A stretch of DNA of 35,236 nt, taken from positions 1 through 35,236 of the forward strand of contig DYLG01000008.1 in the NCBI GenBank assembly GCA_020722215.1. The letters are read 5' to 3'. Positions within the stretch are counted from its first letter, which is position 1; each line of letters opens with the position of its first letter. A model generated the notes under the pieces. The model was given only the letters and a program-made list of their open reading frames with translations. It did not search any database and was not told the DNA's origin. This document shows positions 9,348-29,629 of this stretch, in pieces. The stretch is from Desulfomonile tiedjei. GTDB taxonomy: Bacteria; Desulfobacterota; Desulfomonilia; Desulfomonilales; Desulfomonilaceae. The position numbers and the translations under genes were made by a program.

Positions 9348-10163
9348 TCAAGGCCTGCGGACTAGCAACTCTTTCAGTCGAAGACTCAGCGGGTGATTGA
9401 CAATGATGTTTCTGCCCTGCGGGTCCTCTATAAGCCTTCGCAAAATGTACTCATCCCAACCGTCCTTATTGGTTTTCATATCTCCACGGACTTGGCTGAC
9501 ATATCGTGGCGCCGGCCTCATCCGTTGGACACTTAGAATCGCTGGTGCCAATACCCTTTGATCCGGCTGACGCTCGTGAGGGTCGCCCCAGCCCCGCGTG
9601 GGCCAATCCCGAGGAGTCTTCCTCAATCCCAAAGCTCTTTTCACGGAGCGTTCGTCCTGGACCAACAGGGACTCAAACATCGGCTCCATGCAAACCGGCA
9701 AGATCATCCCGTGTTCAAGTATGGGTGGGCCCAAGCGGGCGCCGGGTTGGGCGCGAGCAGCCAGCTCCCTGAACCGTCTCTGCGCCTTTTCCCTCCACAA
9801 ATCCGGTAGAACGCGTGATTGTGCAAGGAAACGGTACAACGCAACGGTCTCGTTCCATCTACAATATTCGCTGGCGGGGCCCCAAGCCGGCACAAGATCC
9901 CACGCAACCAAGGCAGCATCAAACGGGTCTTGATTCAATTTCCGGACCAGTATTTGGTCAAAGCTCTCCCCGGCCCCGACCGGCCGTGGAAGTTCTGGAT
10001 TCATTGACACAAGGTGCTTCTTGGAAATGGGATGGATTTTATGAAAGGGGGGAAAGCTCAAAGCGGACGCTAAGGTCCCATTCCATAGTCTTTCGAGTGG
10101 ATCAGATCTGACGCACGGATATTCGCTTCCCTCGACGAACAACACCACTCTAAGCCTGCACAT
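9348..10163 (-). CDS. TOPRIM/DUF4276-like partner of the adjacent AAA ATPase
   Basis: The protein is 271 residues. The N-terminal strand ends in a glutamate (RVVLFVEGSE, E11), a second strand carries an aspartate (FDAALVAWDLVPAW, D89), and a later motif MEPMFESLLVQD resembles the E-FE-LL segment of DUF4276 and RloB proteins. This layout fits a TOPRIM-like metal-binding nuclease fold, but the match is by eye and the acidic set is not perfect. Its ATG shares one base with the stop of the ATPase gene (TGATG), so the two are translationally coupled. ATPase plus TOPRIM pairs are typical of OLD-like and PARIS-like defence systems. The biological target is unknown. Confidence 0.55.
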   Translation of the reverse strand: MCRLRVVLFVEGSEYPCVRSDPLERLWNGTLASALSFPPFHKIHPISKKHLVSMNPELPRPVGAGESFDQILVRKLNQDPFDAALVAWDLVPAWGPASEYCRWNETVALYRFLAQSRVLPDLWREKAQRRFRELAARAQPGARLGPPILEHGMILPVCMEPMFESLLVQDERSVKRALGLRKTPRDWPTRGWGDPHERQPDQRVLAPAILSVQRMRPAPRYVSQVRGDMKTNKDGWDEYILRRLIEDPQGRNIIVNHPLSLRLKELLVRRP

Positions 10164-11374
10164 CAGTCCACCTCGTTCGCGTATATCGTGCCAGCAGGAA
10201 CCGAGGGGTCGTAGGCCATAACCGTTGGAAGAGACGAAAACTGTTCGTAAATGGTGTCCCCGTCCACCCGCCTGACGCGCAAGATTGATTCAATTGGAAC
10301 GTGGTCTAGGAGCCAAGGGGAATGGGTGGTGAGGACAACCTGGGTGCCGCGATCAGCCGCAGATTGAAGATGCCGCAAGACTCTAATCACTACCTTAGGG
10401 TCGAGACCATTTTCAATTTCCTCGATGCAAAGGAGAGATGGGGCCGGTTCGTGAACGAGCAAGGCAAGAATCGCCGTGACGCGACGCGTCCCTTCAGAGA
10501 GCATCCAGGCCGGGATAGGGAACTGGTAACGGCCGCTTCTTCCCCGATAAGGCATCCGCTCAAGAAGACTATAGTGCACCCTGGCATCTCTGCCGAACTC
10601 AGTTTTCAGGACTTCAACGTCCCTTATCCCCGGCATGATTTCGCGGAGATTAAGGACCAGTTCGCGCTTCTGCTCCGGGGTGAGATCGTTGAGTAGAGCC
10701 GGCAGGTTCTGTCCCTCCTCGTCCAACAAAGGGTCAAACGAACGCTTCTTGGCAGATGAGCCTTGCGCAAGTCTTGCAGGACTAAGGCGCAAGAATACCG
10801 CGCGCGACCAAAAACTCGAAAGAAAGCCGATTGCTGGACGCCGCACAGTGGATTCCGCCGACGTCGCCCAGATTAGAGCTAACCTGTCCGGTTCCCGAAA
10901 GACAAGGTGTTTCTCTGTGCCTTCAGTGGAGTGCACCAACCGCTCCCCTCGACTCTGTGTCTTTATAAAGGTGGACGCCGGCCGGCCTCTATCGCTTAGG
11001 GTCACCAGTTCCTCGGTCGCGATGAAGGGATTTCCTTGCTGATCTTCCACCTTCAAACGATATCGGACTGCCGGGCTGTAGTTCCTCGAACCCCAAACCA
11101 GCGTAATTTGGAAGTACGGCGCCTCAGTCCTAGACCGTAGGTTGATCAAGTCCTGTACGCCGAAATAGCGGTCGCTGGCATCGCGCGCGTCACGCCTTAT
11201 TGTGTTGTCGACCCATTGAAGCGCCTCAATCAGAGTACTCTTGCCGCTGCCGTTCGCACCGATGACAACGTTAAAGGATTGCATCGGAATCGGTTCTGGT
11301 CTGAACGCTGCTTTGAAACGCTCTATGGTCACTTTGGACAAGTACCTATGTTCGTGGTTGGGAAAACTATTCAT
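10163..11374 (-). CDS. AAA (ABC-type, AAA_21/RecF-like) ATPase
   Basis: The protein is 403 residues. It has Walker A IGANGSGKSTLIEAL near residue 38, an ABC-like signature region MLSEGTRRVTAILALL, Walker B SLLCIEEIENGLDP and the switch histidine VLTTHSPWLL. This is the compact SMC/RecF-type ATPase head found in OLD-family and many defence ATPases, with a short helical insertion instead of a long coiled coil. A GGAGT site precedes the ATG. The gene overlaps the TOPRIM-like gene after it by one base. A second, different ATPase of the same superfamily lies 264 bases upstream on the same strand. Confidence 0.85.
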   Translation of the reverse strand: MNSFPNHEHRYLSKVTIERFKAAFRPEPIPMQSFNVVIGANGSGKSTLIEALQWVDNTIRRDARDASDRYFGVQDLINLRSRTEAPYFQITLVWGSRNYSPAVRYRLKVEDQQGNPFIATEELVTLSDRGRPASTFIKTQSRGERLVHSTEGTEKHLVFREPDRLALIWATSAESTVRRPAIGFLSSFWSRAVFLRLSPARLAQGSSAKKRSFDPLLDEEGQNLPALLNDLTPEQKRELVLNLREIMPGIRDVEVLKTEFGRDARVHYSLLERMPYRGRSGRYQFPIPAWMLSEGTRRVTAILALLVHEPAPSLLCIEEIENGLDPKVVIRVLRHLQSAADRGTQVVLTTHSPWLLDHVPIESILRVRRVDGDTIYEQFSSLPTVMAYDPSVPAGTIYANEVD

Positions 11375-11512
11375 GAGGACTCCCTTGACGCAAAAAGGGT
11401 ACGGCTGGTAACATCGTCGGTTGGAAGCGGACAGCCGGTCTCAGGGGTGCGCGCATCCGGTTCCCCCGTTAGTGTGCAACAAAAGCGTAGCAAAATCAAA
11501 GTTTTTATTAAT

Positions 11513-11641
11513 TCATATTGTGCCTGCGACTTTGGGAAAGTGGACTTCGTCTTGTTTACAGAAGAAACAAGTTGGGCTTTCCGCTAGCGCCAGCAAAGCG
11601 TCAGATTCTTCCACCAGAACTTGTACATGTTCCACTGTCAT
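11513..11641 (-). pseudogene. Remnant of a DUF4276-type partner gene after the second ATPase
   Basis: A 42-codon frame starts at ATG 11641, overlapping the ATPase stop as ATGA. This is the usual arrangement of ATPase-DUF4276 pairs. Its first dozen residues ([12 protein letters not shown]) look like the start of a DUF4276 protein. The rest, up to the TGA at 11513, does not, and no continuation is seen in other frames down to 11375. The simplest reading is that most of the partner gene was deleted. It could instead be a genuine small ORF. Confidence 0.5.
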
Positions 11642-12897
11642 CGCTGCCGCCCCTTATCCCCAGGCCCCGTAGCGCCGGACAGTGGGTCGCCCCCAAGCCC
11701 CAAATGCCCTTCAAGCCATAGATACCCCATGGTCGCCCCCTCCCTGACGAATTGAGGAATTCCCTCGATGTCCGATGCCCGCTCGGTTTGCGTGAAGCCC
11801 CTTTCGTCTCGGTACAGAACGCGAATCTGTTCAGGCCTGAAGGAGTTCAGAAGGAAAGGCGAATGGGTTGTGACTAAGAGTTGAGATTTCTCACCCGCGG
11901 CGCCGCATTCCTCGGCAAGCTCGGGGAGCAGGCGTGGATGAAGGTAGTTCTCCGGTTCCTCGATGCCGATGAACTGCGGCGGCTCCGGATCGTACAGCAC
12001 CGTGAGGTACGCGAGCATTTTGAGCGTTCCATCGGAAGCAAACCTCGAAAGAACGGGCCGCTTGAAGGGGGCATCCTTGATTTGAAGCAGAAGCCGCCCG
12101 TCAGGCATGGGCTCGGCCTCCACTCGCTCAAGGCCCGGAACTCGGCGCTGTAACACCTCGATGATCTTTTCCAGCCTTTCACTGTGTTGTTCCTTCAAGT
12201 ACTGGATGACGTTGGGCAGGTTGTCCCCGGTCTTCGTTAGCCGCTCCTGCGGCCCTGCTTCGGGCTGACGCCGCGCATCGTCAATGGAGAGGTAAGAGAC
12301 GTACCAGTCTGTTATGAACTCCCGAAGCGCCGCAACCCTCGGGTGTTCGGCAAACCGACCCAGCGTATTGACTGCGATGAGGTCGGGTGAGCGCAGGGGA
12401 ATGTCCACTCGCTTGTCCTTCTCGTCCGGCATCTCGCCGCTGACCGCCCTCCCTTGTCCTTCCCGGTACTCAAGAAAACGAAAGGGCCTTCCCCTCTGGC
12501 CGCGGCGCCACTGCATCCACTCTTCAACCACCACGGGGGCCTTTGCTTTTTCGTCGATAGCAAGGTGATACGTGATTAACGGCAGACTGGGTTTTTCCCT
12601 GTACTGGATCTCGATTTTGACAGGGCCTTCCTCGCCTCGTGTCTTCAGTTCTCGCTCCCGGCCTCGGCGATCCCAGGCATGACGCAATCCATACTGAAAA
12701 CACTCGGACAGGAAGTTGAAGACATCGAATACGGTTGATTTGCCGCTCCCGTTAGGACCGACGAGGACCATTACAGGGGTGATCTTCGAGAATAAGACCT
12801 CACGCAAAGCGCGATAATTTCTGACCCGCAGAGTTTCAATGCGCGCCGGGCCTGAAGACCGGAGCTGATCAGGAGGTTTTTTCTTACGCTTTTCCAT
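11638..12897 (-). CDS. AAA (ABC-type, AAA_21) ATPase, probably without its partner
   Basis: The protein is 419 residues with an unusual basic leader ([10 protein letters not shown]). It then has [17 protein letters not shown], Walker [17 protein letters not shown], a signature region [16 protein letters not shown], Walker [14 protein letters not shown] and [12 protein letters not shown]. This is the subfamily commonly encoded directly before a DUF4276 gene. Here the partner is reduced to a 42-codon remnant overlapping the stop codon. The ATPase itself looks intact, so it may be a recent orphan or may work with the neighbouring ATPase-TOPRIM pair. The ribosome binding site is weak. Confidence 0.85.
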
Positions 12898-13147: not shown

Positions 13148-14377
13148 CTACGGCCTGGGATCGCTCACCCGTCCGATGAACAGTATGTTCTTGGTGGCCT
13201 TGTCCCGAATGAGGAACACAAACGGACGATCCGCGTGGAATTCCTCTACGCGCGTCTCCCTTGCAGCGAATTTCACCACCGCGGCAGTGGCTGCGGCAGC
13301 CTCGGTTCCTTCTTCGTTGACGTCCACGAATGCCTGATGCACCACTTCGCCGACAAAAAGGTTCTTCCCGCCGTCAATGCCGGAGAAATCAGCGGGAGGC
13401 AGCGACAAAGCCTTTGCCATTCCCATCGCCCTCAGGGAATCGGCCAGTAGAAAGCTTCTTGTTATCTTGAATCTGGGAAGGGACACATCCACGGTCGTGA
13501 GAGAAAGCTTGTCGAGCCATCCGGCGAGATTCTCCGCAGTGAGGGACTGCTCCAAGGCCGGCAACCCGTCGCGCTTTCCGGGGAGGAGAATCACCATGAA
13601 CAAGCTTTCCCCCGCGTAAGGGATTTCAAGAACCTGAAACGATTCGGTCTTGGAGTATTTGAAACGCCGCTTTTCATGCATCATGGGAACAGTCGCCTTG
13701 TTCCCGTCCGCAAGAGTGAACTCCCCGTCCTTGGTGGCTTCCTTGTTGAACGGCCGCGCCCACTTTCCCTTGAAATAGATGGCGTTGGCCATGACCATCC
13801 GCGTCAAACGGTCGATGACGCCTTTTTGAAGAAGATCCTTGATCTTGTCCTTGGTCTGCTCCTCAACCCACAAGTTGATGGCTTGCCGCGCAGACTCGGG
13901 ATCCGAAGCGAAATCCACCGAGGCTATCCTGGCTGCGTAATCCGTTTGTGCCAGTTGAAGGTACGCCGGAAGCACCGGGTAGGCTTTGGCGATCCAAACG
14001 GAATTGGCAACAGCCAGATCTATGGCCCCTTCCGCGCCGGTCCTCGCGTTCAGCTCCTTGGTGAGGGCTGCAAAGGCTTTGTGTAGCGCAGCGTCCTTCA
14101 GGCCGAAATGAAGAACCTTTTCCATCTCTGCCGCAGTCTCGCCACGGGCCCCAGCGTAAACAAGCGCCAAAGTGCAGGACACGCTGTACGGCGACAGAAA
14201 GAGATTGCCCTCGTTCGCCTTGAGACTGGCGTAAAGGTCGAGTGCAAATAGGTTGTTCGACTGAACCAAAGCGTTGATATCATCGGAACCTGCAAATGAA
14301 TTGAATCCCGTGCCACAGCTCAGGAGCAATCCCATCATAAGCGCGAGCGTCACGAAAAGTCCTCTGTTTCTTGACAT
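13148..14377 (-). CDS. Serpin-family protease inhibitor, predicted lipoprotein
   Basis: The protein is 409 residues, the normal serpin length. Serpin blocks are clear: NLFLSPYSVSCTLALVYAGA, VMANAIYFKGKWARPF, a shutter/breach region ending VVHQAFVDVNEEGTEAAA, and FHADRPFVFLIRDKATKNI. The hinge GTEAAAAT (about residues 357-364) has the small residues required for insertion of the reactive loop, so inhibition by trapping is expected. The N-terminus is a signal peptide ending in a lipobox-like LLSC (C21), which suggests membrane anchoring. The start is ATG 14377 with AAGGAGA upstream; the frame extends further upstream but overlaps the OmpA gene. It is the last of six packed genes that include two caspase-like proteases. 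Confidence 0.93.
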   Translation of the reverse strand: MSRNRGLFVTLALMMGLLLSCGTGFNSFAGSDDINALVQSNNLFALDLYASLKANEGNLFLSPYSVSCTLALVYAGARGETAAEMEKVLHFGLKDAALHKAFAALTKELNARTGAEGAIDLAVANSVWIAKAYPVLPAYLQLAQTDYAARIASVDFASDPESARQAINLWVEEQTKDKIKDLLQKGVIDRLTRMVMANAIYFKGKWARPFNKEATKDGEFTLADGNKATVPMMHEKRRFKYSKTESFQVLEIPYAGESLFMVILLPGKRDGLPALEQSLTAENLAGWLDKLSLTTVDVSLPRFKITRSFLLADSLRAMGMAKALSLPPADFSGIDGGKNLFVGEVVHQAFVDVNEEGTEAAAATAAVVKFAARETRVEEFHADRPFVFLIRDKATKNILFIGRVSDPRP

Positions 14378-14406
14378 CTTTGTCTCCTTGATGATGTGAA
14401 GCGGAC

Positions 14407-15387
14407 TCACTTTGAGCATGCGGGAGGCACACCGTATTGTACGGTTATGTCCTTGGGGTCCACATGGGCTCCCGCATTCCAGATGACAACTCGGCGGTTG
14501 AACTTGTCCACCGTCGACCACTTGTCCCTGGCGTGCTCTTTTCTTGCCATTGCAGGGCTGGAGAGTCCGTAGCTGACCGGAACAAGGGTCACCTGCTCGA
14601 TTCCCCAGCGTTTCTTGAGATAATCGACTACGGCAGCGGCACGTCTTTGGCCCAGCCCGCAATTGTAGTTTGCTTCCCCCGTCTCGTCCGTGTGCCCCTC
14701 AATCATTATGCATTGGCCCTGAAAGCCTTTGCTCTGAAGGGCTTCTCCAATGGCGTCGAGATGCTTTCTTGCCTCTTGGCTCAACTCTGTGCCATCGAAG
14801 CTGAAATATACCTCGATACGGTTGAGCTTGGGCCTGAGGTTTCTGGACACGGCCTTGTCAATGGTCAAGACTTCCTTGACGGACGCTGGTGAGTACATCG
14901 TTGAGAAGATGCTTTCAGCCGTTCGGAGGAGGTCCTCGTCGAGCTGTTTGTTCCGTGCCTGAGTCAGAGCTCTGTAGATGTTCATGTGGATCAAGGCCTT
15001 TTCCGACTTGCCTTTCTCACGGTAGATTTTGCCGATAAGCAGGTTCGTTTGTGCGAGATCGTCCACGGACCTCTGAAGCATTACCCCTCGGAACCTGTTG
15101 GCCTGCCGAAGCCAGTGCAATGCTCGTTCATTGTCGTTCCTGTCCAGGTAAAGCCTTGCCAACTGATAATAGCCCTGGCAATGGTTCCCATGTTCGGGAC
15201 AAGTCTTGAAAGCAAGCTCCATGAGTTCCATCCTCTTTTCGGGCGATGCCTCCTTCAGAGCCCTTTCGAAGATCTCTTGAGCTTTGAGATAATCTTCGTC
15301 CGAACAACCTGCGCCGGCCGGTCCCGAACACAGGAATACTCCGAGAACGGCTATCGGCACTAACAAGGATTGAATTATACGGTTCAT
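14407..15387 (-). CDS. Exported TPR-OmpA family protein
   Basis: The protein is 326 residues with a signal peptide (cleavage likely near GPAGA-GC). TPR-like helices follow (GYYQLARLYLDRNDNERALHWL, about residues 75-95). A C-terminal OmpA domain has IEVYFSFDGTELSQEAR, IEGHTDETGEANYNCGLGQRR and VSYGLSSP. The D and R residues of this domain bind peptidoglycan in the family. It lies 10 bases after the second caspase gene and 29 bases before the serpin. It probably tethers or organises the other products at the cell wall; that role is inferred from the operon. Confidence 0.85.
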   Translation of the reverse strand: MNRIIQSLLVPIAVLGVFLCSGPAGAGCSDEDYLKAQEIFERALKEASPEKRMELMELAFKTCPEHGNHCQGYYQLARLYLDRNDNERALHWLRQANRFRGVMLQRSVDDLAQTNLLIGKIYREKGKSEKALIHMNIYRALTQARNKQLDEDLLRTAESIFSTMYSPASVKEVLTIDKAVSRNLRPKLNRIEVYFSFDGTELSQEARKHLDAIGEALQSKGFQGQCIMIEGHTDETGEANYNCGLGQRRAAAVVDYLKKRWGIEQVTLVPVSYGLSSPAMARKEHARDKWSTVDKFNRRVVIWNAGAHVDPKDITVQYGVPPACSK

Positions 15388-15397
15388 GAGTCACCCG

Positions 15398-17191
15398 TCA
15401 TCTGCTTGATGCAAACGATTTGAGCCACCAGACTCTTGATATCCAGTCCCCCTTCGGCTTACCGGAATCGGTAAGCTCCTTCCAGAGCATCTCGATGAAG
15501 TCGGATTGATCGGTTAGCCAGTCTCGTTTCTCGTCGCCGATCTCGTCCTTGGACCACAATCGCGCAAGCGACTCCAAGGGCCGATCGCTGAGAATGGCAT
15601 ATATCATCTCCTTGCCGAAAGGTGCATGAACGGACACGCAATAGTCTTCCCCAATTGCCGCGTAAGTGCCGGAACCGGCCTTTGGGGCTACCCCGTCGCG
15701 TCCCGGATAGAGAGGATGGATCACCCCTGTAGTGTCCACGTTGAACATATAGAGGTATCCGGGTGTTTGGGCTTTCGCCCGGAAAAGCAGAGCGTCTCCT
15801 CTGACCACCTCGCCCTTGGTTCTCGGCGGATTTCCCTTCACTTCGTGGTCGAGATCCAGGGCCATCCGAGTGTTCGCGTTACGGAGGGAAGACATGCAGA
15901 GCTGAACGTACAAGGCTCTGATATCCTTCATAATACTGCTTAGGGCCGTGTCAAGAGACGGCGCCTCGTGCGACTCCCAAGTGCCTGAAGAGTCGGACAG
16001 CCTGGCCACGTACTTGGAACCGGACTTGTCCACTTCGATCATGCAGGAAGCCTTAGAGCTGTCGTCAACCCAAGCGAGGGGAGGAATCTTTGAGCTAAGT
16101 GCATACTTGATCTTCTCCCGTTCTTCGCTGGAAATGGCCGCTTCGGTCTTCAGATGACAGAAGATTCGATCCGGCCGCCGAAGCTGCCCCTTCTCGCCGC
16201 GGGTTCCTGCGGCAAACACCTCGCCCTCAAGAGATTTGGGCAGGAAATGATGCTGAGGCATCTGGGCATGATCGTCTCTTGCGATCTCGTCGGAGAGGAA
16301 CTTGGCCAGTTCCCCATAGGATATCTTGCCGTCATGGTCCAGGTCGGCCTTGCCTGCCAGGCCGTTAATGAGATACCAGGTGAAGACGCTATGCACGCCC
16401 GTGGGCTCCTTCTCGAACATGATGATCGCGGCGGGTTGGGAATCCTCCGATGCGGTGAACACAGCGGTCTGAGCCCCATTCACTTCCAGGTCGCCTCCGA
16501 TGTTGGTGTTCTCTCGGATCACGGCTTTCTTTCCTGCCAACCTAGGGGTCCATGGACTCTTGTAGTAGGCTTGGGAGCCTGGCGTCTTGTACTGAACCAG
16601 GCGAGTATTCACATTCTTGTACACGGAACCCGAATGACACGAGTCGCTGATGAAAACAACCTTTCGGCCATTCATCCGTTTGAAAAGCTCACCGATTTCA
16701 TCGTCCAGGATGAAGTTCTTGGCTCCGTTGAGAGTGAAGGCGGACTGCGGTCGCCCCTGGAAATCCTTGGCAACCTTGCCGCTGAGCAACTTCGCGTCCC
16801 AGGTCATGAGAGCTTCGTCCAGGCCGTCCTGCACCTCGTCGCCGTTTTCGTCCCAGATCTGTATTCCGTGGCCGCTGAAATAGAACAGCGCGGTGTCTCC
16901 AGGCTGGGTTCCGTTCAGAAGCCATTCCTGGAAAACGCTCAAGATTTTCTCTTTGGTAGCCTCCTTGTCAATGAGTGTCTTGATCTCATCGGGTGAAAAC
17001 GCGCCATTCTTGATCAGAGCCTCTCGAAACAGGCGCACATCTTCCCTCACGCCTTTCAGAGAGTTACCCGGCTCCTCGTATTCCTCCAGCCCCACAAGGA
17101 GGGCCCTTCGGGCACTCAGTGCAGGGGCCGCGGCAGCGGCCATGAGCGCCACCGCGACCAGCACGATCGTGAGAAGCCGGAGCCCTGTCAT
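15398..17191 (-). CDS. Exported caspase-like protease (peptidase C14/orthocaspase) with EF-hand-like loop and DUF4384
   Basis: The protein is 597 residues with a signal peptide (LTIVLVAVALMAAAAAPALSA). The caspase domain has the catalytic histidine in FYFSGHG (about H108) and cysteine in FISDSCHSGS (about C185). The acidic segment DGLDEALM lies between them. The DSC-HSG form, with Asp two residues before Cys, is the metacaspase/orthocaspase type, which cuts after Arg or Lys. An EF-hand-like loop DLDHDGKISYGEL follows at about 283-295, suggesting calcium binding. A DUF4384 domain (DALLFRAKAQTPGYLYMFNV) lies near residues 462-542. The start ATG 17191 is one base beyond the upstream stop (TGACATG), indicating coupled translation. 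A longer frame to 17245 overlaps that gene. Confidence 0.9.
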   Translation of the reverse strand: MTGLRLLTIVLVAVALMAAAAAPALSARRALLVGLEEYEEPGNSLKGVREDVRLFREALIKNGAFSPDEIKTLIDKEATKEKILSVFQEWLLNGTQPGDTALFYFSGHGIQIWDENGDEVQDGLDEALMTWDAKLLSGKVAKDFQGRPQSAFTLNGAKNFILDDEIGELFKRMNGRKVVFISDSCHSGSVYKNVNTRLVQYKTPGSQAYYKSPWTPRLAGKKAVIRENTNIGGDLEVNGAQTAVFTASEDSQPAAIIMFEKEPTGVHSVFTWYLINGLAGKADLDHDGKISYGELAKFLSDEIARDDHAQMPQHHFLPKSLEGEVFAAGTRGEKGQLRRPDRIFCHLKTEAAISSEEREKIKYALSSKIPPLAWVDDSSKASCMIEVDKSGSKYVARLSDSSGTWESHEAPSLDTALSSIMKDIRALYVQLCMSSLRNANTRMALDLDHEVKGNPPRTKGEVVRGDALLFRAKAQTPGYLYMFNVDTTGVIHPLYPGRDGVAPKAGSGTYAAIGEDYCVSVHAPFGKEMIYAILSDRPLESLARLWSKDEIGDEKRDWLTDQSDFIEMLWKELTDSGKPKGDWISRVWWLKSFASSR

Positions 17192-17192
17192 G

Positions 17193-18218
17193 TCAACGGC
17201 ATCTGCCGGCCCATTGATAGCCTTTGAGCTCCAGTATCTCGCCATTCTTTACCTCCACCCTGCGGTTGAGCTGACGGCCGTCGGGCGTGTCGTTGTCCGC
17301 CACGGGTCGGCCCTCTCCGAAGCTGCGGGGCACGAGCATGCGGGGATGGATATCCCATTTTTCAGCCAAGTATCTGATCACGCTCCTCGCCCGCTCGTAA
17401 CCGAGCCGGCAGTTTGCGTCGTCAGGGCCAACGGCGTCGGTGTGGCCATCGATATAAAAGGTTCCTATTCTGCGAAGGGCAGAGGAACTGAGAGCCATGC
17501 CCAGCTCGTCCAACTGTCGCATGGAACTTTGTGTGAGCCGTGCCGATCCCGACTCGAACAGGATGTTGTGGAAAACAACAGCGGGGACGTCTTCGTCCTC
17601 ATACCTGTATCGTCCTCTACGACGCCCCTGCGAATCGTCATCCTGGTATCGGGAATAGCCTGGCGAATCGTCGTCATGACGCCGGCCTCTTCGATCCCCT
17701 GAGAGGGAACGCACTATCACGTCCTTCGGAACAAGGTTGGACGGACCTTTCGCTTCCAGAGCAGGCGGAGGAACGGCCTTTGCCAGTTGATGATATTCCT
17801 CCAGCGCTTTGCGGTCGTCAGAGTGGGAAAGCGCAGCTTCATAGTACATGATGGCGAGTTTCTTGTCGTCCTTCTTTGCCAGCTTTCGGGCCGCTTGGAT
17901 CATCAAGGGACACGTTTTCTTAGGATCGGCCTTGAGTGCTGACTGAAAGTGCTTGAGAGCATCCGAGGGTTTGTCCGCTTTCAGCGCTTTTTCCGCCAGA
18001 TCAAGGGCCGCTGATGGATCCTTTTTTTCAGGACAGAGCGATGCGGCCTCTGCCAGCAATTCCTTCTTCACCTCTTCGGGCATCTTGTCCGAGGCTGCCA
18101 CATGCTTTCGTATGGCGTCGGCTCTGTCGCAGTCCGAGGCCGAAGCTGCCGGCCCGAAGGCCGGCATCAGCATTAGCAGTGCCAGACATGCCGCCCCTAA
18201 TGCGTAGCTTCGTGTCAT
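17193..18218 (-). CDS. Exported TPR-OmpA family protein with charged linker
   Basis: The protein is 341 residues. A signal peptide (YALGAACLALLMLMPAFGP) is followed by helical TPR-like repeats (SDALKHFQSALKADPKKTC, IMYYEAALSHSDDRKALEEY). Then comes a strongly charged, low-complexity linker of alternating Arg and Asp (RRGRRHDDD, DDDSQGRRRGRYRYEDED). The C-terminal OmpA domain has HNILFESGSARLTQSSM, FYIDGHTDAVGPDDANC and LVPRSFGEGRPVADN, the peptidoglycan-binding fold. It overlaps the upstream DUF4384 gene by four bases (ATGA) and is one base from the next caspase gene. It is a paralogue in architecture of the second OmpA protein of the operon, not a recent copy. Confidence 0.87.
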   Translation of the reverse strand: MTRSYALGAACLALLMLMPAFGPAASASDCDRADAIRKHVAASDKMPEEVKKELLAEAASLCPEKKDPSAALDLAEKALKADKPSDALKHFQSALKADPKKTCPLMIQAARKLAKKDDKKLAIMYYEAALSHSDDRKALEEYHQLAKAVPPPALEAKGPSNLVPKDVIVRSLSGDRRGRRHDDDSPGYSRYQDDDSQGRRRGRYRYEDEDVPAVVFHNILFESGSARLTQSSMRQLDELGMALSSSALRRIGTFYIDGHTDAVGPDDANCRLGYERARSVIRYLAEKWDIHPRMLVPRSFGEGRPVADNDTPDGRQLNRRVEVKNGEILELKGYQWAGRCR

Positions 18219-19288
18219 GGCAGCACCTTGAAGGTAGTCTTGGTTCTGATATACTCTTCGTCGGGCATATCCTGCAGTTGCACTTCGATGTCCTTATCGA
18301 TGGTTTCCGCTTTTTCATCCCATGGCTGATAGCAATACTTGTCCCAGTCGTACGCTCCGCTGTAAATATGGTACTTGTGAGACATGACCACAGCCTTGAT
18401 CATTTCCTTTCCCGGAGGACCCTGCACCCTGAAAAGGAACTCGTCTTCGGGAACCGCGGGGATTTCTACCACCTCACCGCCTTTAATGAAATTGTCCTTC
18501 TGGTAGCGGTTGGGGAAAATGATCCGCACCTTGCCGCTGGTCCCGTAATCCACGAGGTTGAGATAGCAGTCCCGTTCGGAATAGAAGAAGAAACTCACCG
18601 GCGCCCCGGGCTTGTATGACTTCCGATCGGTCCAGAGTTTGACGATCCAATCGCCACGCTCCCTTTCGCCGATCCTTCTGTCGTCATCCTCCCCGGGCTC
18701 GCAACGCCGAACGATAGTGAAGTTCGTCTCTGCCTCGGTCCAGCCCTTGGCATCCTGCTTCCTCAATTCGACGGCAAGGTCCTTGACCGCCTTGACCGGA
18801 TCTCTCAGCTCAGGGAAGGGCCCTTTACCGTATAGGAGGGCTTCATCCGGGAAGCAGCGGAAAGGTTTGAGCGTCCCGATGGCCTTTATGTAGTTCACGC
18901 CTTCGGGCCCTCTCACCTTGAAAACGAAATCGGAACCCTTCACGGGGATGCGGTACTTCTTGCCTGCTTTCACTTTGTTATCTTTGTGCCGCTTGTTGGG
19001 GAAGATCACATGGACTTTCCCGCTGGTTCCGATGTCGATGATAGTCAGATACGCGTCCTGACTGGACGTGAAAGTGAACTCCGCCTCTTCGCCTATGCAG
19101 AATTTGCCGGACCTTGAGGCAGGTTTGATGGAAATGGTGAAATCCGGGTTGTCAGATCGAATCCGGGAAAGGTCTTCCACCACTATGTCCTTGGGATCAC
19201 CCTCCTCTTTGGCAAAGGCCGCGCCCGCAAGGATCACCGTGCAGATGGCCGCCAGCACCAGAAACAAGTGCAGAAATCTCTTTTTCAT
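18215..19288 (-). CDS. Exported protein with two DUF4384 domains
   Basis: The protein is 357 residues. A signal peptide (FLHLFLVLAAICTVILAGAAFA) is followed by two copies of the same domain. Copy one has EAEFTFTSSQDAYLTIIDIG, TSGKVHVIFPNKRHKDN and DFVFKVRGPEGVNYIKAI. Copy two has APVSFFFYSERDCYLNLVDY, GTSGKVRIIFPNRYQKDN and EFLFRVQGPPGKEMIKAV. The same fold sits at the N-terminus of the first caspase and the C-terminus of the second. DUF4384 has no established biochemical role. Here it may be an adaptor that recognises other operon members. A good AAAGGAG site precedes ATG 19288, 21 bases after the first caspase gene. Confidence 0.85.
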   Translation of the reverse strand: MKKRFLHLFLVLAAICTVILAGAAFAKEEGDPKDIVVEDLSRIRSDNPDFTISIKPASRSGKFCIGEEAEFTFTSSQDAYLTIIDIGTSGKVHVIFPNKRHKDNKVKAGKKYRIPVKGSDFVFKVRGPEGVNYIKAIGTLKPFRCFPDEALLYGKGPFPELRDPVKAVKDLAVELRKQDAKGWTEAETNFTIVRRCEPGEDDDRRIGERERGDWIVKLWTDRKSYKPGAPVSFFFYSERDCYLNLVDYGTSGKVRIIFPNRYQKDNFIKGGEVVEIPAVPEDEFLFRVQGPPGKEMIKAVVMSHKYHIYSGAYDWDKYCYQPWDEKAETIDKDIEVQLQDMPDEEYIRTKTTFKVLP

Positions 19289-19309
19289 ATCTTGTCGCTC
19301 CTTTCTTGT

Positions 19310-20728
19310 TCAAAACTTGATGTCGGTTGCAAGACCGTATTCGTCCGAGAGTTGAGGGTTTTGCCTTGAGGGCGCTTCAACGGTTTCCTGCGAAACCCTG
19401 GAGCGCGCCGCGTTGAAGGCCCCTGCCAGGTCTATTCCGCCTCTTGTATTGTTCAACAACCAGTAGGTGAACAGGCCGCTCTTCTTGGAACGGTCCTCAT
19501 AGGAAGTTTCCACGTCAGCACACGCGGCGAGCAGCGTGTCTTTGAACTGGCCGAACTCTCCCTTAGTCAAGGGGGACCTGGCGCCTTTTGCCGAGAGACG
19601 GCACTCCTTCATCTGGCTTTCAGTGAGCAACGGCAGGTACTTGGATACCAGGTTGCCCCCGAGTTGCTTGTGAACCGTGCCGCTATGGCATGAATCCACC
19701 ACCATGACTCGCCTCTTTGCAGGGACCTCTTTCATCATGTCGGCGAACTCGTCGTCGATCAGCAGGATTCTGTTCAGATCCGGATCGTCCCCTCGAAGCT
19801 CACCCTTGCTATGGTAGCAAATGAGCGCTTCATCCATGCCGTCTTCTTCGTCTCTTGCGCCCGTGTCTTTCACCTGGGTTCCATGTCCGCTGAAGTATAT
19901 GAAGACAAGATCTTCAGGTTTGGTTTCCCGGGCCAACCATTGGATGGCCTCTTGAAACCGGGCTTTGGTGGCGTCCTGATCAAGAAGCAGCACCACATTC
20001 TGCCGGGGAACCTTCAGGAGATTCCCTATCATCCCGCTGAACCCCCTGGCATCATCCGAGCAGAACCGAAGATTCCCGGTGGGCGCGCCCACAGCCAGTA
20101 CAAAGATTCTGTCGCTAGTGATCTCTCCACCCGTACTCACATTTCCCACAGCGAGCCTCACTTCGGCCGTTCCCCAGGACACGTTGCCGCCAAGATCGTC
20201 GCATCTTCGGGACGCCTCTACCACCAGGTCCTTCAGTTGGCCTGAGTAAGACTTGAATCCGTTCCGGTATTCGCCGAATTCTTCTTCCCTGAGAATTCTG
20301 TCTTTCTCAGAGGTGGCGTAGGCCATGATTCGCTCGATTCCCTCGGGCCCGGAGACTTTGAAACTGAACCTGTCCCTGCTCGATGGAAATGAATAGCGCT
20401 CCCGCGCCCGTACGAAATTGTCCGAACCGGAGAACTGGTTCGGCCAAAGTCGCGTGATCTTACCGGAAGTGCCTATGTCCAGCAAGGTGAGATAGCAATC
20501 CCTGTCGGCCTCGAAGTAGACGGTGACCGTATCTCCGGGGCGGACACGCGTCTTGTCCACGGAAAGCCGAATTCCCACTTTGTTGGCGCCGTGGGCGTTG
20601 ACCGGCAACACTTCAATATCCTTGTGAAAGGTGAGTGTCACCTTATCCGCCGCGCTCGCACCTGGCGGCAGCACCAACAACAGCGCCGCCAGAAAGAACG
20701 CGGGCATCAAATATCGCTGCAAAAACAT
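19310..20728 (-). CDS. Exported caspase-like protease (peptidase C14/orthocaspase) with N-terminal DUF4384
   Basis: The protein is 472 residues with a signal peptide (FFLAALLLVLPPGASA). DUF4384 occupies about residues 50-140 (VTVYFEADRDCYLTLLDIG, SGKITRLWPNQFSGSDNF). The caspase domain spans about 205-470, with histidine in VFIYFSGHG (H282), the acidic segment EEDGMDEALICYH, and cysteine in VMVVDSCHSGT (C347). Both catalytic residues are present, so it should be active. D345 before the DSC-HSG cysteine suggests basic P1 specificity, as in metacaspases. A strong AAGGAGGT site precedes the ATG. It is the first gene of the six-gene unit; the 431-base leader before it could contain its promoter. 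Confidence 0.9.
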   Translation of the reverse strand: MFLQRYLMPAFFLAALLLVLPPGASAADKVTLTFHKDIEVLPVNAHGANKVGIRLSVDKTRVRPGDTVTVYFEADRDCYLTLLDIGTSGKITRLWPNQFSGSDNFVRARERYSFPSSRDRFSFKVSGPEGIERIMAYATSEKDRILREEEFGEYRNGFKSYSGQLKDLVVEASRRCDDLGGNVSWGTAEVRLAVGNVSTGGEITSDRIFVLAVGAPTGNLRFCSDDARGFSGMIGNLLKVPRQNVVLLLDQDATKARFQEAIQWLARETKPEDLVFIYFSGHGTQVKDTGARDEEDGMDEALICYHSKGELRGDDPDLNRILLIDDEFADMMKEVPAKRRVMVVDSCHSGTVHKQLGGNLVSKYLPLLTESQMKECRLSAKGARSPLTKGEFGQFKDTLLAACADVETSYEDRSKKSGLFTYWLLNNTRGGIDLAGAFNAARSRVSQETVEAPSRQNPQLSDEYGLATDIKF

Positions 20729-20779
20729 TCTCGACCTCCTTGATTTCCGTTCTTGACTCTAGACAAGCTGACTAGACCA

Positions 20780-20794
20780 CATCCGAACCGGATG
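20780..20794 (-). other. Small hairpin in the leader of the caspase operon
   Basis: CATCCG at 20780-20785 pairs with CGGATG at 20789-20794 around a 3-base loop, about 50 bases upstream of the first caspase start. The wider 20729-21159 gap holds no supported gene. It contains this hairpin, a T/A-rich stretch near 20970-21000 and the palindrome at 21051. I could not identify an ECF-type promoter by eye. Confidence 0.35.
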
Positions 20795-21050
20795 AGTCTC
20801 CGGGCTGACACAAGGCTTCGATAGACCCGGCCTTGCTGCGCGGATTGGCCGGTTGCTCTCTTATTTCCCGCCGAATCCGATCCCCCCTTTCGGGTCGTTA
20901 GTGTGGGCCGGCTGAACGCCCCTGTCATGTTAGTCGCGGCCCGGAGGAAAATATGACGCGCTCCGTGGAAAAAAAATCATATCGAACAAAAAACGCATGA
21001 ACGTCGGCTGTACGGCTACTTAGGGAATCAATGCCCCATTCGCCAGGTTG

Positions 21051-21073
21051 AGGGCGGGTTTGAAACCCGCCCT
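21051..21073. repeat. Intergenic palindrome family D (AGGGCGGGTTT-G-AAACCCGCCCT)
   Basis: A perfect 11-bp inverted repeat around a single base lies between the anti-sigma gene and the caspase operon. On the - strand it sits directly after the anti-sigma stop (21160), so it could fold as a strong hairpin separating the two transcripts. Confidence 0.6.
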
Positions 21074-21159
21074 TACCACCAAATCGGAATGTTATCTTGG
21101 CAACGAACGTAGGTCCGGGGGTGCGTCTTCGTGCGGATGGATTTGCATAAAATTGGTCT

Positions 21160-22203
21160 TCATCGGAAATCCGCTTCCATGAGGAGTTCCGAGCCCGCGG
21201 CAGAGATTCTCGATGGGAGGTCCTCCAGCTTCAAGCGGGTCTGCAGGATCATGCTGATGCGGGTCTTCGCTTGCGGGCGAAAAACGCTCCCGTTAAGCTT
21301 GTACCCGTCCGGCGATTTGAGAACTTCGAACAACAGAAGGTAGTTGGCTCCGGACTTTGTCAATACCAGGTCGGCAAATTCCGAGATGTCGGCGGACTCC
21401 TTTGCTTCAGCCAGGGCCTGCTTCATTTCGGCCGGGGGAATGAAACGGTATATTGTGCTGAGATTTCGGGGCAGGTCCAGGTTTTCGTAGATCCTGTCCA
21501 GTTCCGCTTGCGAGAGTACTGAGTCTGCGGGAATCATCAGCACCAGGGCCACCTTATTGAGCGCACCGGGTTGGTGCGGCCTGTCGCCCGGCGTTTTGGT
21601 GATTTCCGAAGGGGCTATCTTCCACATTGCGTCGCTGAGGACCGGTCTCAGTGATTTGTCGACCGGCCGCTGCGGGAGCAGCACCACCACAAGCAGCGCG
21701 GCAACTACAGCCCCGAGCGCCATGGAGGGGATGTGCAGGGCAGCGGTCAATTTCTGAAGAAAGCCCGGTTGCGGTTGCAGCTCCGGTTTCTCTTTGAGAC
21801 CGTATTCCCTGGCGACTTCCGCGCGAATAAGGGCCTTTTCCTCCAACGAGGGCTCTGCCTTTACCGGCGCCAGGTCCTCTTCGTGCAGCTCACGGACAAT
21901 TCTCACGAACTCTCGGCAGCCTTCACAGATGTCGAGGTGGTCCGCCACTGAGGCGTCCCGGGCTTCGCCGGTGGCGAATTCCATTAGGGCCTCTTCAGTT
22001 GGACACTTTTCGAAGGCCGGCGCCAGTTCGTCCTTGTGTTGTTTAAGGAAGTTGTCCAGGAGCATGAGGTATTTCAGTTCCTCTCTGCACTCCGTGCATT
22101 CCTGGAGATGCCGGTCGACTTCGGCCATGTCAGCGGGGAAGTCTTCAGGTGACAGCGCCATAGCCAGCTTTTCCGCCACATCGTGTCTCTTGCATTCAGT
22201 CAT
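21160..22203 (-). CDS. Zinc-finger transmembrane anti-sigma factor
   Basis: The protein is 347 residues from ATG 22203. The N-terminal cytoplasmic part has two zinc-binding anti-sigma motifs of the H-x3-C-x2-C type: HLQECTECREEL and HLDICEGCREFV. A single membrane helix (SMALGAVVAALLVVVLL) follows near residue 170. The C-terminal 150 residues would be periplasmic and show no family I recognise. The gene overlaps the sigma gene end by eight bases, the usual pairing. Expected action: hold the ECF sigma inactive until an envelope signal releases it. Its position before the exported caspase operon suggests that operon as a target. Confidence 0.85.
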   Translation of the reverse strand: MTECKRHDVAEKLAMALSPEDFPADMAEVDRHLQECTECREELKYLMLLDNFLKQHKDELAPAFEKCPTEEALMEFATGEARDASVADHLDICEGCREFVRIVRELHEEDLAPVKAEPSLEEKALIRAEVAREYGLKEKPELQPQPGFLQKLTAALHIPSMALGAVVAALLVVVLLPQRPVDKSLRPVLSDAMWKIAPSEITKTPGDRPHQPGALNKVALVLMIPADSVLSQAELDRIYENLDLPRNLSTIYRFIPPAEMKQALAEAKESADISEFADLVLTKSGANYLLLFEVLKSPDGYKLNGSVFRPQAKTRISMILQTRLKLEDLPSRISAAGSELLMEADFR

Positions 22204-22810
22204 TTTCCCTCGCCCCCTGAAGCTGTCGGAGAAGTTGCACAAGGCATCTTCTCATGTTGACGATTACGGTGTTTTCCTTCTCACCTGTCTCGTCGGCTAT
22301 CTCCCGAAAGGAGAAGTCCCGGAAATATCTGTATTGGATCAGTTCTCGGCACCGGTCTCCGAGTTTGGCCAGGGCCGTCCTCACGGCCATGACGCTTTCC
22401 CGGCCAAGCAGCGCTCTGTCAGGCATGCAGATCGAATCGGCCCGCAACAGAACCCTCGACGCTTCATGGTCCACGTCGGTGGGGTTGATTGCGACGTGGA
22501 CAAAATCGGCGCCTCTCTTGAGCGCCTTCCGGTGTCTGAGGCGGGCTATGCACTTGCACACCGCGATCTTGTGCACGAATGTGTTCAACTGTGACCTGAA
22601 CTCAAATCCCTTAAGCGAAGTGATGACCTCGATCATTATGTCCTGCACCAGCTCCTGTTGCTCTGCGCGGTCAAAGCCCCACTTCTTCCATGCAGCCACG
22701 GACACGATCGTTCCCTGATGGAACCGAAAGAATTCATCCCAGGCCTGCTTATCCCCGTCGAGACACCGTTGTACCAACGATCTTTCGTCTCTGCCGGACC
22801 CGATTCTCAT
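22196..22810 (-). CDS. ECF-type RNA polymerase sigma factor
   Basis: The protein is 204 residues. Region 2 is present (LVQRCLDGDKQAWDEFFRFH, ELVQDIMIEVITSLKGFEFR, FVHKIAVCKCIARLRHRK), as is region 4 (LAKLGDRCRELIQYRYFRDF, SFREIADETGEKENTVIVNM), with no sigma-70 regions 1 or 3. It would bind core RNA polymerase and direct it to a small regulon, often including its own operon. GGAAG precedes the ATG. It sits 103 bases after the DUF3160-like gene and overlaps its anti-sigma factor. The -35 and -10 specificity cannot be read from the sequence. Confidence 0.92.
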   Translation of the reverse strand: MRIGSGRDERSLVQRCLDGDKQAWDEFFRFHQGTIVSVAAWKKWGFDRAEQQELVQDIMIEVITSLKGFEFRSQLNTFVHKIAVCKCIARLRHRKALKRGADFVHVAINPTDVDHEASRVLLRADSICMPDRALLGRESVMAVRTALAKLGDRCRELIQYRYFRDFSFREIADETGEKENTVIVNMRRCLVQLLRQLQGAREND

Positions 22811-22913
22811 CTCGTCACTTCCTTGCGTCCCACTACTCGGCCGCTGCCGCCTCGATGAACGCCACGCGTTTATTCAGCGCTAATTGCGCGTTCGTGGGTG
22901 ACCCGGCATTCCG

Positions 22914-24650
22914 TCATTCTTCTCCGCGGGCAGCCGGTAAGGGTACTATTGACGGCAGCTTGTCCAGACTGCCCTCGAGTATTCGCTTGCGCCACGCAAG
23001 ATTGTTCAGCGGCCCGTCGGAGCCCGGCATGATGATGTCGCCCCAGGTTTCGAAGAAAATTGCGGTGAGTCCGTTCACCTTCCCTTGTACGCCCTCGACG
23101 CTATAGGCAGCCACGAAGGGCGCAATGGCCCATTGGTAATAGAAAACCTTGCCGGACGGGTCCTTCACCCGAAATACGTCCACCGTGACTGCGACGGGCC
23201 GCTGCAGATGGGTGACGACCGGGCCGTGGCTCTTCCAAAGGTCGCTGCCCGTTACCAGCGGCTCGCCCTTGGCTGCCAGTTCCGCGAAGGCTTCCAAAGT
23301 CGGGCCGATGTCTTGGATGCTGCAATCTTTGACGAATTCCTTTGGGGCCAATTTATCCACAAATTGCCATGCGTTGGTCATGACTTTGGCGGCATCTGCC
23401 AGAGCAAGCAGATACTTCTCCGAATCCGGTTCGAAGTAGAGTTTAACTCCGTCCGGTATCTGAGGAGCGGCTTCGGCCGATTTCCTCACGAAGGTCGACG
23501 TCTTGGCCATCAGAGCCGTCTGTTCGGCAAGCCCGGTGAGAGAAGCCGCGTAGAAGTTCTTGCGGAAAGGATTCGTTCTCCAGCCGTCCGCGCCGACGGA
23601 TATGGCTTTCAGGGTGACATGGTAGTAGTCCTTGCCAGTGGATTTGACGGCGCCTACGTCAAGTCCTGCAATCATTGGTTTCTTCGTTTTCAGGCCGACC
23701 AAAAGCTGGTCGAATCGCAGTATTTCGGCGATCCGCTCTCTGGTTGTATCGTCCTTGATCATAGCCTTCTTGATCCGGTCGATAACCAGGGCATGCACCG
23801 TGAACCGCTCGCCGAATGGCTGTATCCCAAGGCCCGTTTCAGGATTTATGCGAGGTATTCCGATCTTCTTGGCCCATTTCTTGACCGATTCCTTGTCCAG
23901 CTTGCCGCCCTTGATGATTTTTGGGAGGCTCAAGAACGTGGGCAGGTCCGGCGCTCCGTTCACCCGAGAATAGAACACATGGATGAGACGCCAGTATTGA
24001 ACGAGTTTCTTGTTCTTGGGATCGGAAAAGAGTTTGTGCACCGCCAACGCGGTCTCAAAAGGGAAAAGCATTTCCTTGGGAAACGGAAACATCCGCTCGT
24101 TGATCGCCACATTAATGGTGGCTTTGGAAAGGAATTGCATGGCACGGAAGTAGTTTTCCAGCTCCTTGGAGTCCGTGTAATGTCCTCTGGGACTGAACAT
24201 GGGGTTGGATTTAATCGCTTCAGCCTGTTTGACCACCTCGTCGGGAAGCTCTATCCCCGGATTCTCCGTCAGCAGAATTAGCGGAATCCCGAAAAGACGG
24301 ACAATTTGAGGATTCTTGGATGCCTTGACCAACCCTTTTAAAGTATCGGCAAGCACTGGGATGAGGACGTTCTCTTCAATCCGCTTCTGGTTCTCCTGGG
24401 AGACACCTTTCATGATCTGGAAGAGGTACGAGTTGGTGAGCATGACGGATTTCCCGTCTATAAGTTGCTGGTTAACCCAATCTTTTGAGGCAGGGTCGAT
24501 TGCGGAAATGACCTTGGGCTGGACAATTTTGGAACCGGGCTGAGGCCGCGCGATTGTCTTTGCCGCATCCGCAGGCCCAATAACCACGCTGCCGAACAGC
24601 CAAACTACCACAGTTGCCATTGCGCCGTATGGCGGTCGCCAAATTCTCAT
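22914..24650 (-). CDS. Exported DUF3160-like protein of unknown function
   Basis: The protein is 578 residues. The start ATG 24650 is chosen because GGAGG precedes it at good spacing; an upstream start at 24701 lacks this. A signal peptide-like segment (MATVVVWLFGSVVIGPADA) leads into a long, mostly helical protein. Segments such as HYTDSKELENYFRAMQFLSK and LVQYWRLIHVFYSRVNG resemble the DUF3160 family, an exported family of unknown role. I am moderately sure of that assignment. It is upstream of and co-directional with the sigma/anti-sigma pair, so it may belong to the same regulon as the caspase genes. Confidence 0.6.
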   Translation of the reverse strand: MRIWRPPYGAMATVVVWLFGSVVIGPADAAKTIARPQPGSKIVQPKVISAIDPASKDWVNQQLIDGKSVMLTNSYLFQIMKGVSQENQKRIEENVLIPVLADTLKGLVKASKNPQIVRLFGIPLILLTENPGIELPDEVVKQAEAIKSNPMFSPRGHYTDSKELENYFRAMQFLSKATINVAINERMFPFPKEMLFPFETALAVHKLFSDPKNKKLVQYWRLIHVFYSRVNGAPDLPTFLSLPKIIKGGKLDKESVKKWAKKIGIPRINPETGLGIQPFGERFTVHALVIDRIKKAMIKDDTTRERIAEILRFDQLLVGLKTKKPMIAGLDVGAVKSTGKDYYHVTLKAISVGADGWRTNPFRKNFYAASLTGLAEQTALMAKTSTFVRKSAEAAPQIPDGVKLYFEPDSEKYLLALADAAKVMTNAWQFVDKLAPKEFVKDCSIQDIGPTLEAFAELAAKGEPLVTGSDLWKSHGPVVTHLQRPVAVTVDVFRVKDPSGKVFYYQWAIAPFVAAYSVEGVQGKVNGLTAIFFETWGDIIMPGSDGPLNNLAWRKRILEGSLDKLPSIVPLPAARGEE

Positions 24651-25570
24651 GTTAACCTCCATGACCAAGAGGTCATAAGGAAGGATCAGAATCCTTGTCA
24701 ATCCAGTCCGTGGCTTCGCCCCGGATCACTCGCGAACCGGATGAAACGCTGCCGGTTCCATTGCCTGCCCGGCTTGGGACGCCGGGCCTGAGCCGCCTCG
24801 GTCATCTCAAGGCCGGACTCATTACCATTAGTGGAGAAACAGGAACCACATGTGACACGCCTGACCTGAATTTTTTTTGAACCCCAATAGAGCGATTCTG
24901 AGGGATCGTTTGAAACGGGAGCGTCTTATCCGTGACATTCAATTTCTTTGATCGCCGCGAAGAAGATCGAGCAGGAGCGTTCCAAGCAGGCCTAGGAGCC
25001 TCTTGCGAAACCTCCTCAATGTCGAGGATCGTGCCGCCCGGGTAGCCCGGACGCTGCCGCGTCCCGGTTCCGAAGGAACAGGAGGTCTGAGCCGGCAATC
25101 GAGTTGCTTCGGCAAATTGGCTCTGACACATGGTCCTGGACAATATGAGTCCTGCCGCTTGGCGGCCTGAACGTATAACGTCCAAGCTACCCGGATCTCT
25201 TCGATTGCCCTCGTGCCACGATTCGAGCATTATCAACGGTTGCGAGACACTCTCCTAGGTCGTGGCGCCACCGAACGCGGCGTTTTGCAGTAGGACACGT
25301 CCCGGACAAAACGGCAAACCTCCGCCCCAAGTCACGCTGGGATGCCCCATGACCTGTGAGCCCTTTCCGGTTCGCCTCTCCCCCAATGACATGGCCCCTC
25401 CCCAACAGCCTAAATTTGCTCGTTTATGCTTGATGACAGTCCCGAAACCCTTCCCGTCATCTCCTGCGAGCAGGACGGAGCAAGCCTGTTCCAAGACTGC
25501 TACGCCCCATTGGTCTCCCGACATTATGCGCCGGTCCGATTGTAGCCGAGCGAGGCCGGGAAATCAACGG
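24651..25570. other. 920-base gap without a supported gene, containing repeat family E
   Basis: Open frames here are short, overlap on both strands and lack ribosome binding sites or recognisable motifs. Two related repeats occur. The first is at about 25036-25080 (GGGTAGCCCGGACG...). The second, in inverse orientation, is at about 25151-25195 (core ACGTATAACGT). They match the copy at about 29657-29700 (GGACGTTATACGTCC). The gap probably holds the promoter of the DUF3160 gene, but none was identified. Confidence 0.5.
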
Positions 25571-29564: not shown

Positions 29565-29629
29565 ACCACCAAGACACAAAGACACCAAGTGAAAGGCTCT
29601 TTGAGTTCTTTGTGTCTTCGTGGTTGATT
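29565..29629. repeat. Inverted repeat family F (ACCACCAAGACACAAAG ... CTTTGTGTCTTCGTGGTT)
   Basis: The left arm at 29565-29581 and the right arm at 29608-29625 pair with one or two mismatches. Right-arm-like copies recur at 33836-33850 (CTCTTTGTGTCTTCG) and, more diverged, at 34000-34023 (TGTCTTCGTG, then GGTTGAT). The repeat is followed by repeat E at 29657-29700. Confidence 0.6.

Follow-up and report, generated by a model that had tools for sequence, protein, structure and literature searches.

The genome of Desulfomonile tiedjei, a sulfate-reducer-like bacterium, contains an operon that combines exported caspase-type proteases with a serpin, and the block, whose existence is confirmed, is both conserved and unusual. 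It lies in the window analyzed here, i.e., the whole stretch of 35,236 nucleotides from contig DYLG01000008.1, whose source assembly (GCA_020722215.1) amounts to 3.74 Mb and is 82% complete. Serpins have repeatedly joined exported protease modules, and their targets appear to vary by lineage, which corrects the central inference of the first-pass annotation, namely that the serpin inhibits the caspases of its own operon.

All genes of the block are located on the minus strand. The protease unit consists of six genes, identified from open reading frames, Pfam and NCBIfam models, and the raw sequence, with intergenic gaps of 21, -4, 1, 10, and 29 bp, in agreement with the spacing of -4 to +29 bases described at first pass. 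Its first gene (19310–20728) encodes a DUF4384-caspase of family C14 with the catalytic residues H282 and C347 and an S1 pocket formed by C223, D226, S280, and D345. This gene is followed by those of an exported double DUF4384 protein devoid of a protease domain (18215–19288; two Pfam domains, 152.8 bits), an OmpA-like protein (17193–18218; 59.8 bits), a second caspase with the reverse C14-DUF4384 arrangement, catalytic H108 and C185, and the S1 Asp pair D51 and D183 (15398–17191), a TPR-OmpA protein (14407–15387; 60.1 bits), and a lipoprotein serpin (13148–14377). Both OmpA proteins are cell-wall-binding by family, and every open reading frame of the unit starts with a signal-peptide-like N-terminus, as judged by eye. 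Upstream of these genes, a second unit begins with an exported DUF3160-family protein (22914–24650; Pfam DUF3160, 39.5 bits for a cut-off of 25) and continues with an ECF sigma factor (22196–22810; TIGR02937, 77 bits) and a membrane anti-sigma factor (21160–22203), which overlaps the sigma gene by 8 nt and contains two HxxxCxxC motifs, one transmembrane segment, and a presumed sensor domain at its C-terminus that matches no known family. Thus, the gene content that the first-pass annotation had read from the sequence was recovered in full, although the zinc-finger model zf-HC2 of Pfam scored just under its cut-off on the anti-sigma factor.

Other genes of the window deserve mention. Directly downstream of the serpin, the minus strand carries a small gene and a pair of genes for AAA_21/AAA_15 ATPases (9348–12897), and the stretch 11638–12897 matches the PADLOC model HEC-01A with 534 bits, a candidate anti-phage system. 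A defensive role of the cluster itself was considered and discarded, since the PADLOC hits in it are limited to generic models of caspase and TPR proteins. On the plus strand, an open reading frame at 29620–30411 retains no more of a caspase domain than its C-terminal half (26.8 bits, ADTCRAGG) and is possibly a third caspase, frameshifted or degenerate.

The two caspases of the operon present the motifs SGHG and DSCHSG, and the His/Cys pairs reported at first pass are intact. This p20 dyad is that of orthocaspases and type I metacaspase-like C14 peptidases, and the nearest solved relatives of the first caspase are metacaspases (Metacaspase-1, 5e-14). Both enzymes also carry an S1 Asp pair equivalent to Asp95 and Asp211 of TbMC2, namely D226/D345 in the first and D51/D183 in the second. 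Two S1 Asp residues direct metacaspase cleavage to positions after basic residues (PMC6426788), and Arg/Lys specificity has been reported for orthocaspases (PMC8283722). Since both acidic residues are present, the window caspases are expected to prefer Arg or Lys at P1 and are predicted to be two orthocaspases of the Arg/Lys type. Structure predictions from two-sequence alignments reached a mean pLDDT of 39 for the first caspase and 50 for the anti-sigma factor, both too low for use.

The serpin, the only one found in the 82% complete assembly, covers Pfam positions 2–370 of 370 (413 bits), a complete fold by profile, and displays the lipobox LLLSCG, as assigned by eye. Its reactive-centre hinge, EEGTEAAAAT, which together with the loop AAVVKFA occupies positions 13265–13315, matches the P17–P9 motif E(E/K/R)GTEAAAA that defines inhibitory serpins (PMC8233489). 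From this hinge and the full fold, it is predicted to be an inhibitory serpin of MEROPS family I4, in line with the first-pass assignment. SERPINB1 is its closest solved relative (7e-92). The loop after the hinge reads AAVVKFA followed by ARETR, and its sixth and seventh residues, Phe (13268–13270) and Ala (13265–13267), align on Phe343 and Cys344 of SERPINB1. In that protein, Phe343 is the P1 residue for chymotrypsin-like proteases and Cys344 the one for elastase-like proteases (PMC11327461). By loop comparison and the SERPINB1 alignment, both residues are candidates for P1, with a register uncertain by one residue. A caspase inhibitor of the CrmA type has Asp at P1, and the window loop contains no Asp; moreover, Phe and Ala occupy the positions at which AtSerpin1-like metacaspase inhibitors would carry Arg or Lys. 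The alignment of Phe and Ala with the P1 residues of SERPINB1, together with the acidic S1 pockets of the caspases, makes this protein look like an inhibitor of serine proteases rather than of the operon caspases, which are probably not its targets.

Regarding regulation, the sigma factor contains sigma70 regions 2 and 4 only, i.e., the ECF architecture. The anti-sigma factor shares 33% identity with its counterpart in a relative from another genus (G013), with both Cys motifs kept, and the DUF3160 homologue of that genome (8e-206) is also placed directly before the sigma gene. The distance between the anti-sigma gene and the first caspase, 430 bp, indicates that the sigma genes and the protease genes are probably transcribed separately. 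An exact 12-mer, TCATCCGGTTCG, occurs on the minus strand at 20784–20795, 56 bp before the first caspase, and again at 24733–24744, 83 bp before the DUF3160 gene, as a possible shared promoter or operator element. These are the only two copies in the whole window, and about 0.5% of shuffled pairs share any 12-mer. The element was absent in the relatives checked (G013 and G014), and its presence in both upstream regions is only a hint of a sigma-dependent site; in a consensus scan, promoter-like sites appeared at chance level, and terminator-like sites did not exceed it either. We infer sigma control of the protease operon from the adjacency of the two units and this one repeated 12-mer.

Conservation was evaluated by a class-wide search of 42 genomes with the double DUF4384 protein and the serpins as queries, which located both on one contig in four further genomes (G007, G009, G013, and G014) from three other genera. 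The adjacency of C14, OmpA, DUF4384, and serpin genes, on whose co-conservation the first-pass proposal had been made to depend, therefore extends beyond the window. In G013, the order DUF3160-sigma-anti-sigma-C14-DUF4384-OmpA-C14-OmpA is that of the window, and a divergent serpin stands next door, with a DUF4384-trypsin gene 38 bp beyond it. The arrangement in G014 is sigma-anti-sigma-DUF4384-C14-OmpA-serpin and, 16 bp further, a DUF4384-subtilase. G007 and G009 share OmpA, TPR-CHAT, C14-DUF4384, DUF4384-C14, and serpin genes, plus another large gene of the TPR or TPR-CHAT type; in both, a DUF4384-caspase immediately precedes the serpin. The CHAT dyads of the cluster genes are intact, and G007 has additional sigma/anti-sigma genes at the front, so that homologues of the sigma factor stand at the front of the cluster in three genomes (G013, G014, and G007). 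Apart from its main cluster, G013 encodes a second DUF4384-subtilase (contig C108, L244:2709-4610), which suggests that DUF4384 is an adaptor to which proteases of several folds can be joined interchangeably, as well as a second, longer serpin (contig C48, L115:9377-11125) that lies outside the protease clusters and groups with the serpin of G010.

The serpin is a frequent guest and not a fixed component of the cluster. Two genomes, G001 (94% complete) and G017 (100% complete), keep the cluster without the serpin, which is thus dispensable. Contig ends were rejected as the cause, since genome-wide searches found no serpin at all and the absence is real, subject to completeness; G011 likewise has the cluster, and a divergent serpin is encoded elsewhere in its genome. 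Within the family, five of the eight serpin loci lie inside the cluster, with a binomial probability of about 3e-6, a rough value under generous assumptions that ignores shared ancestry. Outside the family, C14, CHAT, DUF4384, S1, or S8 neighbours were detected with HMMs built here at none of 30 serpin loci flanked in a sample of 395 Desulfobacterota genomes, some of whose contigs end near the gene. When 54 serpin loci drawn from the whole set of prokaryote genomes were examined, such neighbours were found only at L002, on the G013 contig, and at L034, in Nitrospirota.

The class of the latter locus, Thermodesulfovibrionia, was followed up in 200 genomes. Exported C14 and/or CHAT genes occur near four of its six complete serpin loci (L034, L195, L196, and L198), a co-location with a rough chance estimate of 1e-4. 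The serpin and a WD40-caspase are separated by 2 bp in L196, a bare caspase lies 234 bp from the serpin in L198, and a caspase and a CHAT gene are found about 5.6 kb and 2.9 kb away, respectively, in L195. All four cluster serpins carry Lys at P1 (MVTK or MLSK), which suits the caspases next to them; the Arg/Lys P1 of metacaspase-inhibiting serpins was found in Nitrospirota serpins only, although two Thermodesulfovibrionia serpins without caspase or CHAT neighbours also carry Lys/Arg. A serpin–caspase pairing is plausible from these residues in Nitrospirota and unlikely in the window. In three of these clusters (L196:14425-17776, L198:1-1986, and L195:10905-12959), a FlgT_N/TPR protein recurs together with exported genes that belong to no named family, and genes resembling MlaD/ABC lipid transporters, assigned by eye, adjoin L196 and L198.

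In a serpin tree of 95 rows, the cluster serpins fall into three lineages, namely the window and G013 (support 99/89), to which the G014 serpin is weakly attached, G007 and G009 (100/99), and the four Nitrospirota sequences (100/99). The well-supported branches require at least three changes, and a single origin was recovered in 0% of bootstraps. At least three separate recruitments into like neighbourhoods imply that the link is functional and was not inherited once, and this repetition is the strongest evidence for a functional association between serpins and proteases. The passenger model, by which the serpin sits in the operon by chance and its adjacency is meaningless, could draw on the variable position and strand of the serpin among genomes and on the serpins encoded elsewhere in G010, G011, and G013. 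However, it conflicts with these recruitments in two phyla and with both rough chance estimates, and we consider it very improbable; chance adjacency was likewise rejected on the 0/30 count outside the family and the Nitrospirota loci.

On balance, the block is probably a protease module of the cell envelope whose proteases can be exchanged, with a serpin that guards mainly serine proteases and, in some lineages, caspases. The membrane anti-sigma factor would hold the ECF sigma factor until an envelope signal releases it, and the freed sigma would switch on the second operon, all of whose products are exported. DUF4384-fused proteases, which in the window are the two orthocaspases, together with the free DUF4384 protein and the two OmpA-type anchors, would then be placed on the peptidoglycan, resulting in localized extracytoplasmic proteolysis. 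The protease slot may be swapped, with DUF4384 fused to a caspase, a glutamyl-endopeptidase-like protease, or a subtilase in sister genera, and TPR-CHAT proteases may join. The serpin would be the suicide inhibitor of the module through the standard loop-cleavage trap, acting on its serine-protease members or on incoming proteases, with a loop adapted in each lineage: to chymotrypsin- or elastase-like serine proteases, of the cluster type or foreign, in the window; to the adjoining glutamyl endopeptidase in G013; and to Lys-cleaving proteases, including the adjoining caspases, in Nitrospirota. We infer both the pairings of serpins with proteases and the anchoring to the wall, and the specificities are predictions from residues. 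The co-conservation of the serpin supports the part of the first-pass proposal in which a controlled set of extracytoplasmic proteases, equipped with a sigma/anti-sigma pair of its own, is functionally tied to a serpin.

In G013, the protease beside the serpin has as best solved match the Bacillus glutamyl endopeptidase 1p3c (3e-27) and contains the triad motifs TAGHC, DFDFG, and TYGGQSGS, as well as an S1 His in GIHTQGG, as in glutamyl endopeptidases of family S1B, in which His213 has a role in S1 (PMC5508998). The adjoining serpin carries Glu at the sixth loop residue, a position that serves as P1 in SERPINB1 (PMC11327461), and this match with a glutamyl endopeptidase is suggestive. An acidic P1 as a shared caspase-like signature was rejected: Asp or Glu occupies the sixth position in three of five family serpins versus 7 of 88 in the background, but this difference was noticed after the fact, in few sequences, and does not fit caspases with an acidic S1; of these loops, only that of the G013 pair is kept as main evidence. 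Counting against the proposed serine target, a DUF4384-fused serine protease was not found in the 82% complete window genome.

Two other readings deserve consideration. According to the first-pass annotation, the serpin would be a cross-class suicide inhibitor of the operon caspases that prevents premature or stray periplasmic proteolysis, which fits their location in one operon with a 29-bp spacing, the serpins directly after a DUF4384-caspase in G007 and G009, the invariant Lys at P1 beside caspases in Nitrospirota, and the inhibition of metacaspases by plant and algal serpins (PMC10609998). It is nevertheless unlikely for the window, where an acidic S1 pair that calls for Arg/Lys faces a Phe/Ala loop; none of the five family cluster serpins has Lys or Arg at the sixth or seventh loop position, and two of them adjoin DUF4384-fused serine proteases instead. 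Alternatively, the serpin may share the sigma-controlled envelope-stress response as a shield against foreign proteases from predators, competitors, hosts, or protists, leaving the cluster proteases untouched. Its lipoprotein nature, its fast-changing loop (25% identity between the window and G013, versus 50% overall), the lack of a co-encoded protease for most serpins of the phylum, and its dispensability in G001 and G017 agree with such a role. We regard it as rather unlikely, since it would leave unexplained why serpins of three lineages repeatedly came to lie next to exported proteases, and why a Glu residue faces a glutamyl endopeptidase in one of them. A broader proposal, in which exported serpins suicide-inhibit co-encoded orthocaspases in some lineages, most clearly in Thermodesulfovibrionia with their Lys P1 and one pair 2 bp apart, and in which the window is a re-targeted variant, would amount to bacterial extracytoplasmic serpin–caspase circuits and is put forward tentatively, as possible rather than probable.

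Among known systems, staphopain–staphostatin is a bacterial protease–inhibitor operon with a secreted protease, in which staphostatin, a small cytoplasmic protein with a fold other than that of serpins, inhibits its own operon partner. The window block resembles it in co-encoding a secreted protease and an inhibitor, but differs in that an exported serpin takes the place of the inhibitor and the protease partner can change. CrmA, invoked as precedent at first pass, is not the nearest one; serpins that inhibit metacaspases, namely AtSerpin1 with metacaspase 9/1 in plants and CrSERPIN with CrMCA-I in an alga, are closer (PMC10609998). These systems also associate a serpin with an Arg/Lys-specific caspase-fold protease, by suicide inhibition, which is a prediction from the genes here. 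However, they are eukaryotic and lack an operon, whereas the window serpin has no Arg/Lys at P1 and its proteases are exported and sited with wall-anchor genes.

Published orthocaspases, fused to DUF4384, TPR, WD40, or trypsin-like domains, and pseudo-orthocaspases reported with a trypsin-like domain and DUF4384 (PMC6426788, PMC8283722), share with the cluster proteases C14 domains with intact or altered dyads, an acidic S1 pocket, and DUF4384 fusion; a term search of both papers, in which export is not a theme, retrieved no serpin or inhibitor partner. Known prokaryotic serpins, such as miropin, siropins, the B. longum serpin, thermopin, and the group S serpins, are similar in their inhibitory hinge and, mostly, in their export; their physiological partners are mostly unknown or host proteases, their role in free-living prokaryotes has been called enigmatic, and the word operon is absent from their survey (PMC8233489). 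The literature searched, which covered few subscription papers, contains no description of such a cluster. Orthocaspases, mostly discussed in relation to programmed cell death, are placed here in a probable context of envelope proteolysis that includes wall anchors and a sigma factor of its own. The repeatedly evolved linkage of serpins to exported caspase, CHAT, trypsin-like, and subtilisin-like proteases suggests a job for bacterial serpins and provides named candidate targets that turn it into a testable question.
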